From positions 1 through 35,787 of the forward strand of contig SCQV01000055.1 in assembly GCA_004299085.1 (NCBI GenBank): a DNA stretch of 35,787 bases, read 5' to 3'. Below the pieces are notes generated by a model. That model had not been told where the DNA came from. It did not search any database and saw only the letters and a program-made list of their open reading frames with translations. Below are positions 1,393 through 24,794 of this stretch, one piece after another; the first letter of the stretch is position 1; each line of letters begins with the position of its first letter. This stretch comes from Chitinophagaceae bacterium. GTDB lineage: Bacteria > Bacteroidota > Bacteroidia > Chitinophagales > Chitinophagaceae. The position numbers and the translations under genes are program-made.

Positions 1393-1455
1393 TTGGAGAG
1401 GTCTGATGCAGGGATATTATAATTTCCATGTATGTCTGGATATCCAAATCCGAAC

Positions 1456-1491
1456 GTGAAACCTGAAACTTGAAACCTGAAACTTGAAACA
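1456..1491. repeat. Heptameric (TGAAACY)n array immediately upstream of the response regulator start
   Basis: TGAAACC TGAAACT TGAAACC TGAAACT TGAAAC, ending a few bases before the ATG at 1497. Confidence 0.85.
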
Positions 1492-1496
1492 AACCA

Positions 1497-2663
1497 ATGG
1501 CCACAATCCTGATTATAGATGATGAAAAGAGTATCCGCACTACTTTATCTGATATTCTTAGTTACGAAGGGTATAAAATAGAAGAAGCGGCGGACGGACA
1601 GGAAGGCATTAATTTATTCAAAAAGAAGCAATATGATGTTGTGCTTTGCGATATCAAAATGCCGAAGATTGACGGGATGGAATTCCTGGAACAGGCGGTG
1701 GAGGTGAATCCTGATGTCCCCATTATCATGGTTTCCGGCCATGGGAATATTGACAATGCCGTAGAAGCGGTTAAAAAAGGTGCTTTTGATTTTATCTCCA
1801 AACCGCCGGATCTAAACCGCATCCTGATTACTATTCGTAATGCACTGGATAAAACTTCATTGGTTGCCGAAACAAAAACACTCCGTAAAAAAGTTTCCAG
1901 GACACAGGAAATGATTGGTGAATCGGATCCCATTCAACGCATCAGGGAAACTATAGGGAAAGTTGCGCCTACCGATGCCAGGGTTTTGGTTACCGGCGAG
2001 AACGGCGTGGGAAAGGAACTGGTAGCCCGTTGGATTCACGAGAAAAGTAACCGCGCTGAAGCACCGTTGATTGAGGTGAATTGTGCGGCTATTCCCAGTG
2101 AATTGATTGAAAGTGAGCTGTTCGGCCATGAAAAAGGTTCTTTCACTTCCGCGATAAAACAACGTATCGGAAAATTTGAAAAAGCCAATGGCGGTACACT
2201 GTTTCTTGACGAAGTGGGGGACATGAGCCTGAGTGCCCAGGCTAAAGTATTACGCGCTTTACAGGAAGGAAAAATTACCAGGGTGGGCGGTGAAAAAGAA
2301 ATTAATGTGGATGTGAGAGTGATTGCGGCTACTAATAAAGAGCTGCTGAAAGAAGTGGAAGAAAAGAATTTTCGCCTCGATTTATATCACCGGCTTAGCG
2401 TCATTATCATTCATGTGCCCTCTCTGAATGACAGAGTGGACGATATCCCTGTGTTGACGGAGTATTTCCTGGAGAATATCTGCGCTGATTATGGCATAGC
2501 CAAAAAAGAAATTAATAAAGACGCACTGAAAGCTTTACAAAAGCATGACTGGACAGGCAATATCCGCGAATTGCGTAATGTGGTGGAAAGATTAATAATC
2601 CTTTCAGGAAAAACCATTATGGAAACGGATGTGAATGCGTATGTGATACCGAACAGGGGATAA
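1497..2663 (+). CDS. Sigma-54-type (NtrC family) response regulator: receiver + AAA+ domain, no C-terminal HTH
   Basis: Receiver ILIIDDEKSIRTTL...DVVLCDIKMPKIDGMEFL; Walker A-like GENGVGKELVAR; ELFGHEKGSFTSA; Walker B GGTLFLDEVGD; ends shortly after the GNIRELRNVVERL lid segment. Confidence 0.93.
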   Translation: MATILIIDDEKSIRTTLSDILSYEGYKIEEAADGQEGINLFKKKQYDVVLCDIKMPKIDGMEFLEQAVEVNPDVPIIMVSGHGNIDNAVEAVKKGAFDFISKPPDLNRILITIRNALDKTSLVAETKTLRKKVSRTQEMIGESDPIQRIRETIGKVAPTDARVLVTGENGVGKELVARWIHEKSNRAEAPLIEVNCAAIPSELIESELFGHEKGSFTSAIKQRIGKFEKANGGTLFLDEVGDMSLSAQAKVLRALQEGKITRVGGEKEINVDVRVIAATNKELLKEVEEKNFRLDLYHRLSVIIIHVPSLNDRVDDIPVLTEYFLENICADYGIAKKEINKDALKALQKHDWTGNIRELRNVVERLIILSGKTIMETDVNAYVIPNRG

Positions 2664-2740: not shown

Positions 2741-2978
2741 TTGAACCTCCGAACTCCGGCATTTGATATCCAATATTCCGTGTTCTTTATTCAAAGTTCT
2801 TCATTCAAAGTTCCTTATTCGATATTCCTTGTTCAATGTCCTTTATTCAAAGTTCTTTATTCAGTGTTCTTTATTCGATATTCTTTATTCAGTGTTCAGT
2901 GTTCTTTATTCTGTGTTCCTTATTCGATCTTCTTTATTCGAAGTCCCTTGTTCTTTATTCAATCTTCCTTATTCGATA
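2741..2978. repeat. Long heptamer-phased array, about 34 consecutive TTCNNNN-type units
   Basis: From 2741 to 2978 the sequence parses into 7-mers in one phase, most starting TTC (TTCTTTA TTCAAAG TTCTTCA TTCAAAG TTCCTTA TTCGATA...). Confidence 0.9.
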
Positions 2979-2996
2979 TTACAGTCAATCTCTCTT

Positions 2997-3785
2997 ATGG
3001 AAAATTCAACGCCAATTATCACCATTCACAATCTTTTCAAGCGCTATGGTAATGGCGATTGGGTTTTGAATGGCATTGATATGACTGTTTATCCCGGTCA
3101 GGTGATTGGCTATATAGGGCCAAATGGCGCCGGTAAATCTACTACCGTCAAGATACTTACAGGATTGATATCTGAATTTGAGGGAGATATTTCTATTCTC
3201 GGACTTGACCTGCATAAAGAGACACTTGAAATAAAAAAACATATCGGATATATTCCTGAAAATGCCGAATTATATGATGTGCTTACTCCGATGGAATATC
3301 TGCAATTCATTGGCGGGCTATATAATTTGCCAGAGAATAAGGTGAAGGAACGCGCCCTTATAATGTTAGACTCCTTCGGGCTAAGAATGCATGCCCATAA
3401 CCGCATGGACACTTTTTCCAAAGGCATGAGACAAAAAGTGCTGATTATTTCAGGGCTTATTCATAATCCTAAGATCATCTTTATGGACGAGCCGCTGTCG
3501 GGATTGGACGCTAATGCTGTTATTATTGTCAAAGAAATTATTTCCAGACTGGCTGCAGAAGGCAAGACTATTTTTTATTGCTCACACATGATGGATGTGG
3601 TGGAGAAAGTTTCTGACCGCATTGTTCTGATTAATAACGGCAGAATAATGGCAGATGGTCCTTTTGCAGAATTGCAACAACAGGCACAAGGTAAAAGCCT
3701 GGAGAATATTTTTGCACAGCTTACCGGACATAGCGATTTAGATGATATTGCCGGACAGTTTCTAAACGCCTTTGAAAATGAATAA
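2997..3785 (+). CDS. ABC transporter ATP-binding protein
   Basis: MENSTPIITIHNLFKRYGNGDWVLNG; Walker A GPNGAGKST; signature FSKGMRQKV; Walker B IIFMDEPLSGLD. ORF track start 2763 is an artefact of the open upstream repeat; ATG at 2997 preferred. Confidence 0.92.
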   Translation: MENSTPIITIHNLFKRYGNGDWVLNGIDMTVYPGQVIGYIGPNGAGKSTTVKILTGLISEFEGDISILGLDLHKETLEIKKHIGYIPENAELYDVLTPMEYLQFIGGLYNLPENKVKERALIMLDSFGLRMHAHNRMDTFSKGMRQKVLIISGLIHNPKIIFMDEPLSGLDANAVIIVKEIISRLAAEGKTIFYCSHMMDVVEKVSDRIVLINNGRIMADGPFAELQQQAQGKSLENIFAQLTGHSDLDDIAGQFLNAFENE

Positions 3786-3793
3786 CCCGGGCC

Positions 3794-5485
3794 ATGAATA
3801 AGATATTTCTCTATATCCTTAGTTGGCTGAATCCTGTTTGGGAAGCGCTGGGAGCAGATTCCCGTCAATTGCATGGGATACTGACAACCAAGCTCACAAT
3901 GGATGACCGGCGGCCCTCCACCTTGCAAATGGGAAGGCAAAGGAGAAAGGAAACGGGTAACTCTACGCTGCTTACCGCTTTTATTTCGTTATTATATGGT
4001 TTCTTTATGATGGCGATTGTCATCGGCATGCAGAAGCAAATGCTGACCGGATTAACTATTTATTTCGGGATGTTTATTATTATGCTGGCTTTGACGTTAA
4101 TTTCCGACTTTACTTCTGTTTTGATTGATGTGCGGGATAATTATATTGTTTTTCCGCGCCCGGTGAATGACCGTACTGTGCTGCTTGCCAGGCTGTTGCA
4201 TATCAGCGTTCACTTGAGCAAAATAGTTATCCCGATGGCGGTTCCGGGTATTATTTATCTTGGGATTGCTTATGGAGCATCGGGTGCTGCTCTGATGATC
4301 TTAATGGTTTTTCTGGCAACGGTATTAACTATCTTTCTGATTAACCTGGTTTATTTGTTAATTCTGCAAATTACAACGCCGGCTAAGTTCAAAGAAATCA
4401 TCAATTATATCCAGATAGGTTTTACTATTTTCATATTTGCGTTCTATGAATTATTCCCAAGGTTAATGAACAATAAGGTTCTTGGTAATATTGATCTGAG
4501 ATCGCATCATTGGATTTATTATGTGCCCCCCTTCTGGCTGGCGTCTGTTTGGAGCGTTATTATGGATCATCAATTTCAGCAAACACTCATAATCACTGCA
4601 GGATTAGCTATTATCATCCCCTTGTTGTCTGTATGGGTTGTGATTCGTTTTTTTGCTCCTTCTTTTAATAAGAAATTATCTTCCATCAACTCATCGTCGG
4701 ATGAAAGTAAACCTGTAACTGACATAAAAGTCAAAGCTACGCAGCGAAGCCTTCCCCGGTTCTTATCTAATCTTTTAATCAGAAATAAAACAGAAAGAGC
4801 AGGATTTGTCTTCGGATGGAAGCTGACTTCCCGCAGCAGGGATTTTAAGCTGAAAGTATATCCCATGTTTGGATACGTGATCGTGCTGTTTTTCCTTTTT
4901 ATGTTCGGAGGATTTTCCGGGAATACTCATAAAATTCAAGGTGTGGATTTTTACAAAAAGGGGCCGGGAATACTTTTTATTATTTACTTATGCAGCATAA
5001 TGATCGCTAATGCCGTAGTTTTAATAAAATCATCTGATAAATATAAAGCTGCATGGGTATATTATATATCCCCCGTTCAAAAGCCGGGAATCTTGATCCG
5101 TGGCATGATGAAAATGCTGCTTTTTAAGTATTTTTTCCTGATTTATTTCGTCATAGTGTTACTATCATTATTTCTCAGAGGAATATCTTTTTTACCCAAT
5201 TTATTACTGGGGTTGGTGAATATAATTTTTGTAAGCCTTGTTCTTGGCTTGTTTTATTTAAAGACCTTTCCTTTTTCGGAACAATGGAATATCAATCGTT
5301 CGTCCGGCAGGATGATGAGATCCTTTTTTCTGATGATTATGGTGGGTATTCTGGGAGTGATCCATTATTTTATAATGAATTTTACCATTGTGGTTTTAAT
5401 TCTAACTGTACTGGTGGCAGCCGCGGATTGGTTGTTATTGGATAAATTTAGAAATATAAGTTGGGAGGAGATGAGGACGGAATAG
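3794..5485 (+). CDS. ABC transporter permease-like integral membrane protein
   Basis: 563-aa ORF with many hydrophobic segments, 8 bp after the ATPase gene. Confidence 0.75.
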   Translation: MNKIFLYILSWLNPVWEALGADSRQLHGILTTKLTMDDRRPSTLQMGRQRRKETGNSTLLTAFISLLYGFFMMAIVIGMQKQMLTGLTIYFGMFIIMLALTLISDFTSVLIDVRDNYIVFPRPVNDRTVLLARLLHISVHLSKIVIPMAVPGIIYLGIAYGASGAALMILMVFLATVLTIFLINLVYLLILQITTPAKFKEIINYIQIGFTIFIFAFYELFPRLMNNKVLGNIDLRSHHWIYYVPPFWLASVWSVIMDHQFQQTLIITAGLAIIIPLLSVWVVIRFFAPSFNKKLSSINSSSDESKPVTDIKVKATQRSLPRFLSNLLIRNKTERAGFVFGWKLTSRSRDFKLKVYPMFGYVIVLFFLFMFGGFSGNTHKIQGVDFYKKGPGILFIIYLCSIMIANAVVLIKSSDKYKAAWVYYISPVQKPGILIRGMMKMLLFKYFFLIYFVIVLLSLFLRGISFLPNLLLGLVNIIFVSLVLGLFYLKTFPFSEQWNINRSSGRMMRSFFLMIMVGILGVIHYFIMNFTIVVLILTVLVAAADWLLLDKFRNISWEEMRTE

Positions 5486-20537: not shown

Positions 20538-20621
20538 AAGTGCGCTTTTAATAGGGCGATGATAGGGAGGAGATAGGGAGGAGACAGGGAAAAGGTAGGG
20601 AGAAGGCAGGGGCGTATCCTC
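20538..20621 (+). repeat. Copy 2 of dispersed G-rich repeat with about 4.5 units of 11 bp (YAGGGARRAGR)
   Basis: aagtgcgcttttaatagggcga tgatagggaggaga tagggaggaga cagggaaaagg tagggagaagg caggggcgtatcctc. Confidence 0.8.
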
Positions 20622-24526: not shown

Positions 24527-24630
24527 ATTACAGGGATTTATACCTGTTTTGAACAGGCAGGCTGATAAGCGGTATCTCCGTAAAGATAAGTGAAAATAAA
24601 TGATTATCCGTTTAAGTACAGGAACATCTT

Positions 24631-24735
24631 TTGAATAATGAACATTGAACCTGCCTTTGCCGGCAGGCAGGTATTGAAGTAGAGACAGTACTTCTAAAAT
24701 CGGAAATCGGTGTTGGATATTCGATATTGGGCCAA
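24631..24735. repeat. Degenerate heptamer array with inserted palindrome ACCTGCCTTTGCCGGCAGGCAGGT (24649-24672)
   Basis: TGAATAA TGAACAT TGAACCT, palindrome, then TCGGAAA TCGGTGT TGGATAT TCGATAT TGGG, all 7-bp phased. Confidence 0.6.
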
Positions 24736-24794
24736 ACGAGAGCTATCATGTAGGTTCCTGCATTACAGCGGATAGTCATTTGAAAATATAAATA

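Follow-up and report, generated by a model that had tools for sequence, protein, structure and literature searches.

A degenerate TTC heptamer array upstream of an ABC transporter gene in a Chitinophagaceae bacterium, probably one of a genome-wide class of intergenic heptamer repeats

Described heptamer repeats and how this locus compares

The STRRs of cyanobacteria are tandem 7-bp units located in intergenic DNA at many loci, with several families per genome. The Chitinophagaceae genome considered here is similar in that its 7-bp units are also arranged in tandem (well above chance), lie at many, mainly intergenic loci, and fall into several unit families. The analogy with STRRs proposed in a preliminary description of this locus is supported. 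The differences are the phylum, the units, and the character of the present array, which is strongly degenerate and has a fixed triplet and a 14-bp alternation.

MacGregor (2015, PMC4679880) reported TAACTGA heptamers in Beggiatoaceae, Cyanobacteria, and five Bacteroidetes. These arrays occupy gaps, in many cases directly before a start codon (within several nucleotides of it in the BOGUAY Beggiatoaceae genome), change length in 7-nt steps, and are missing in close relatives, and those of Bacteroidetes are mixed with other heptamers (PMC4679880). The present locus shares the position in a gap upstream of a start codon, the mixture of different heptamers, the probable 7-nt steps, and the absence in a close relative, but its unit is TTCNNNN rather than TAACTGA. 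Rehm (2015, PMC4692102) reported that the GGGAATC/(GGGANTN)n repeats of Xanthomonas and the GGGGAYT repeats of Nostoc form G-quadruplexes, as well as a strand preference of the heptamers in both. Our array also combines a fixed core with variable positions, but TTCNNNN units lack the G-runs needed for quadruplexes: no repeated GGG was found on either strand of its units, and there is only one CCC, in the unit TCCCTTG. The strand preference recurs in another member of the family (G005) but is not clear in the window's genome.

The SPADE survey of 7006 prokaryote genomes (Mori 2018, PMC6344855) found heptamers to be more abundant than any other intergenic tandem repeat, with no known function; it is a general survey, and the available text does not describe the TTC family or its anatomy. 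The preliminary description stated that no functional counterpart had been described in Bacteroidetes. Heptamer arrays have in fact been reported there (PMC4679880), although with no known function (PMC6344855). A literature search for Bacteroidetes-specific heptamer reports found only MacGregor (2015, PMC4679880). The general heptamer class is already known, and the window array adds to it a member whose unit is TTC-anchored and unusually degenerate.

Anatomy and setting of the array

The window, that is, the whole stretch of 35,787 nucleotides that was analysed, contains the features listed in Table 1.

Table 1. Features of the window relevant to the heptamer array
Feature	Position	Strand	Basis or remarks
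Second heptamer array, GTTTCAR family, TTCAAGT/TTCAGGT alternating	1453..1490	-	Precedes the response regulator gene
Response regulator with sigma-54 interaction domain (upstream gene)	1497..2663	+	Domain search
Full heptamer parse, 238 bp = 34 x 7	2741-2978	+	Single phase, no slip
Five in-phase degenerate heptamers (TTGAACC, TCCGAAC, TCCGGCA, TTTGATA, TCCAATA)	2741..2775	+	Unit parse
Robust TTCNNNN array, 29 heptamers	2776..2978	+	Unit parse, per-position information
Spacer from array to start codon, 18 bp	2979..2996	+	The intergenic gap showed no promoter consensus
ABC transporter ATPase gene, PF00005	2997..3785	+	Pfam; start backed by the congener's ATG
Putative ABC permease	3794..5485	+	No Pfam match; inferred from position and hydrophobic stretches
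MITE copy with TTC heptamers	24599..24780	-	Terminal inverted repeat AATGA[T/C]TATCCG; 8-bp target duplication TATTTTCA

The parse into 34 heptamers without a phase slip, its coordinates, and the distance of 18 bp to the ATG were all given correctly in the preliminary description, as was the statement that nearly all units begin with TTC or TCC (27 and 5, respectively, with 2 other starts). Since none of the first five units begins with TTC, we restrict the robust array to the remaining 29; the first five are a probable decayed edge. In dinucleotide shuffles (n = 2000), in-phase TTCs reached a maximum of 11, as opposed to 27 in the array, and the lag-7 match was 0.323 ± 0.028, as opposed to 0.554 (z 8.2). 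The matches at lags 14 and 28 are 0.679 (z 12.4) and 0.638 (z 10.6). The preliminary description had made its case depend on a 7-bp autocorrelation exceeding that of shuffled sequence, and it does so by far.

The consensus of the 29 units is TTC-N-D-T-R and that of the 14-bp unit is TTC-YTTR-TTC-RNNR, with 2.0, 1.64, 2.0, 0.05, 0.53, 1.21, and 0.72 bits of information at heptamer positions 1 to 7 (units of 2776-2978). The four bases following TTC had been called not random, and the alternating classes bear this out, but the positions are not equally free, given that position 6 is mostly T and position 7 mostly A or G. The 14-bp alternation with two breaks is real in units 6 to 34, in which same-class neighbours make up 2 of the 28 pairs (permutation mean, 13.5). 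The first five units are weak. Over the four variable positions, the match is below chance at lag 7 (0.277, with 0.43 expected) and above it at lag 14 (0.546). Since the same alternation is present in another array of this genome (L068) and absent from the long arrays L070-L072, it is a trait of some arrays and not of the TTC family. The observation that phase is kept while bases vary also stands: there are 20 different units among the 34, and the long run of identical units that characterises phase-variable simple sequence repeats is absent.

Regarding the neighbouring genes, the nearest relatives of the ATPase outside the genus are found in Chitinophagaceae and other Bacteroidota, at no more than 67% identity. 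The frames of the array contain 2 stops on the plus strand and 20 on the minus strand, the former being nearly stop-free because stops are rare in TTCNNNN units, and a TTG-initiated ORF (2763-3785) is open through the array. We considered whether the array could be coding sequence and rejected this possibility: the gene of the congener begins at an ATG equivalent to the one at 2997, without an array. Because of the position of that ATG, the longer ORF is probably spurious. No sigma-70-type promoter was found in the gap, nor did a simple scan of it find the Bacteroidota-type promoter TTG-N(17-23)-TAnnTTTG. Elsewhere in the window, heptamer arrays of the GTTTCAR/AAACCTG family are located at 1-64 and 1453-1490, the latter not being found in the same form in the congener, and a tandem 11-bp repeat, ATAGGGAGAAG, occupies 20551-20611.

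Heptamer arrays in the genome, the genus, and the phylum

A search for five in-phase TTCs in the window's own genome (G000) returned 160 matches, in comparison with 18 for the reversed control, and these TTC heptads correspond to around 30 non-MITE loci plus one MITE family. In 494 kb of sequence from this genome, made up of stretches picked in part regardless of arrays, periods 7, 14, and 21 yielded 37, 25, and 24 arrays, whereas the best unrelated period, 11, yielded 11; according to our own gene calls, 5 of the 37 period-7 arrays are mostly coding. TTC is a large family here but has company, as the genome also contains units of the families ATGATYT, ACTNYTT, ATTGANN, AAAAGAT, AATCAGA, and GTTTCAR. 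The preliminary description had also raised the possibility of a one-off expansion absent in close relatives. The absence is real, at least at the orthologous site of the congener, but the array is not a one-off, because its own genome has many others.

Among 41 genomes, including the window's own, TTC heptads are present in 24, with counts that range from none to more than 160 and do not closely follow kinship. In the phylum, six in-phase TTCs were found in 61 of 148 Bacteroidota genomes, representing 39 of 83 genera, in arrays that span from pure (TTCCTAA)n to mixed. Period 7 dominates the intergenic repeats of the window's genome and of several relatives. In 500 kb of G005, for example, we counted 75 heptamer arrays (72 intergenic) but no array with a period of 3-6 or 9-11. 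According to our own ORF and hexamer gene calls, which make start-side distances approximate, the GTSAATN arrays of G005 often begin at the stop codon (16 of 23 after-stop arrays lie within 5 bp), its TTTTGAM arrays precede start codons in 8 of 11 cases, and 62 of 73 intergenic arrays have their purine-rich strand directed away from the nearest gene. The stretches of G005 in which these rules of position and strand were observed are L133-L137 and L142-L161. In the window's genome, by the same gene calls, the GAA strand of arrays between co-directional genes is the coding one in 15 cases and the non-coding one in 8; thus, a rule by which the purine strand faces outward, strong in G005 (62:11), is not evident there, and we do not retain it as general. 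We also discarded the idea that heptamers supply stops in three frames, which suits many of the stop-codon arrays of G005, but the stop-rich strand of the window array is the non-coding one. In genomes G023 (L120, L121) and G010 (L110), we observed arrays directly followed by inverted counterparts, which could form long imperfect hairpins.

Our comparison between species is based on one genome per species, with G001, from another species of the genus, as the sole congener. Gene order around the locus is the same in G001, but the gap between aligned flanks is around 164 bp, in contrast to around 364 bp in G000, and there is no array at the orthologous site. The ATPase and permease genes of G001 (L083/L292) are fused by a large in-frame deletion that joins the first 95 or so ATPase residues to the end of the permease. 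Seven orthologues in the family also lack the array, and when 80 further, more distant orthologous loci were examined over about 160 bp upstream, a heptamer array of any kind was seen in 2. Elsewhere, the two species carry arrays that draw on a common vocabulary but differ in length and units (L051/L288 and L071/L290), both have an array but on opposite strands (L050/L268), or around 330 bp of heptamer DNA in G000 correspond to around 30 bp in G001 (L091/L310); lengths at the sites common to both thus differ between the species. Since the sites share their vocabulary yet differ in length, strand, and presence, we conclude from these alignments that arrays come and go, and that the unit vocabulary predates the split of the species.

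The MITE family that carries TTC heptamers has 12-bp terminal inverted repeats (AATGATTATCCG/CGGATAATCATT), a length of around 174 bp without inserts, and around 30 copies in the window's genome, most of them with perfect 8-bp target duplications (L316-L355). Its heptamers are TTCAATA, TTCATCA, TTCCTTG, TTCAATG, TTCATTA, and TTCAAAA. A 22-bp palindrome, CCTGCCTGCCGGCAAAGGCAGG, is inserted exactly at heptamer junctions, in one or two places (for example, in L324, L322, L320, and L327); copies missing the 14 bp between the two insert places resemble recombinants between inserts, and a second small insert, TCTCCGAAGGAGCCCTTTGGG, lies within the array of some copies. The copy in the window has lost these 14 bp, which we considered as direct evidence of slippage but did not accept as such, because two of the 22-bp inserts flank the same 14 bp in other copies. 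Recombination between the inserts better explains the 14-bp difference between MITE copies than slippage does.

Origin and possible roles of the array

In our view, the array is likely to belong to a genome-wide, STRR-like class of degenerate intergenic heptamers, as a lineage-specific member that expanded locally in steps of 7 and 14 bp and has no dedicated role related to the ABC genes. As it is one of dozens in its genome and is missing at the site of the sister species, we take it, most probably, for filler DNA that expands on its own and not for a switch dedicated to the ABC gene. Such arrays would gain and lose units through replication slippage or unequal recombination, 7 or 14 bp at a time. 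This fits the alternation, the constant phase, and the fact that arrays range from pure to mixed. They would survive owing to their intergenic location. The mobile MITE spreads short arrays of TTC units. The preliminary description reasoned that the array would lie in the promoter or 5′ UTR. A tie to this promoter or to the ABC operon is not supported: the array is not conserved in orthologues, no RNA fold, Rfam match, or promoter match was found for its gap, and in G001 most of both ABC genes is gone. We found no evidence tying the array to the regulation of the ABC gene, and it would have no dedicated part in its control.

One aspect of the array calls for more than the simplest form of slippage. 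Mismatch is 0.044 at the TTC positions, as compared with 0.570 elsewhere in the array, and none of 600 simulations of uniform duplication and mutation, nor any of 91 diversity-matched simulations, produced such an extreme contrast. Under these models, uniform slippage and mutation alone would not explain why TTC is nearly fixed while four bases vary. Arrays picked regardless of their core presented a mild excess of position-specific constraint (10 of 47 and 4 of 23 at p < 0.05). The variable positions of the units are correlated with one another across loci, as expected if whole units are copied, suggesting copying from a limited set; this could produce the contrast by descent, the alternative being selection on the core. 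Most likely, the near-fixed TTC would go back to a small vocabulary of TTC units from which the arrays descend and which has been copied again and again; weak selection on the core may have added to this.

Three heptamers span 21 bp, which is two turns of the helix. It is possible, albeit with a small probability, that a DNA- or RNA-binding protein uses the arrays as platforms, reading TTC (or GAA) every 7 bp, so that core and spacing are selected while the linker drifts. A nearly invariant core beside a free linker is what this would predict, and the MITE copies, with 1 substitution in 192 core positions and 10 in 256 linker positions, point in the same direction, although these are few and not independent. 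The alike core-plus-variable design of the Xanthomonas GGGANTN repeats (PMC4692102) and the orientation of the G005 arrays, many of which start from a stop codon, also speak for it. Nevertheless, the core varies between families of one genome and between species, the array is absent from the congener, and the window's genome shows no clear rule of orientation. We consider it unlikely that TTC arrays and their sister heptamer families in these Bacteroidota serve, as a group, to bind a putative protein through a short core repeated every 7 bp, with core and spacing under selection; if they did, there would be a functional cause behind the widespread excess of period 7 between bacterial genes.

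The remaining alternatives concern this locus more directly. Given that the array ends 18 bp before the start codon and that its coding strand is nearly stop-free, changes in repeat number could alter the 5′ UTR or the spacing of the promoter, thereby raising or lowering expression of the ABC genes. Fast switching arrays consist of identical units, however, while those of this array are not identical, and with no promoter consensus around it, no conservation in orthologues, and decayed ABC genes in the congener, we regard such a contingency switch as very unlikely. It is extremely unlikely that the array acts as an RNA element, folding in the 5′ UTR or between genes as a leader or terminator: the fold of the window gap is no better than that of shuffles (z +0.75), it has no Rfam match, and array-bearing gaps of G005 show no more structure than those without arrays (median z -0.74 and -1.06, respectively). 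Inverted arrays at convergent genes of G005 do sometimes fold (median z -3.1, n = 9), but so do array-free convergent gaps (n = 3), and folding thus gives no support to a hairpin or terminator function. Finally, the array could be a decayed copy of the MITE, which itself carries TTC heptamers and whose array aligns closely with around 36 bp of the window (2816-2851). As an account of the whole array, this seems highly improbable, as we found neither 12-bp terminal inverted repeats nor an 8-bp target duplication surrounding it, the alignment of the MITE outside its own array is at chance level (score 16; shuffle 95th percentile, 18), and most of the window array's units differ from those of the MITE. 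A MITE fragment may still have seeded the array.

By itself, a single array at an ABC gene, which we interpret as a locally expanded member of a genome-wide class, is of minor importance. The group to which it belongs is nonetheless good material for probing the function of heptamers, as it offers many families per genome and a mobile element that carries arrays. Also useful are the close species with and without an array at the same site and the genomes of one family with more than 100 matches beside others with none, and in G005 the arrays at the ends of genes sharply obey a rule of position and strand.
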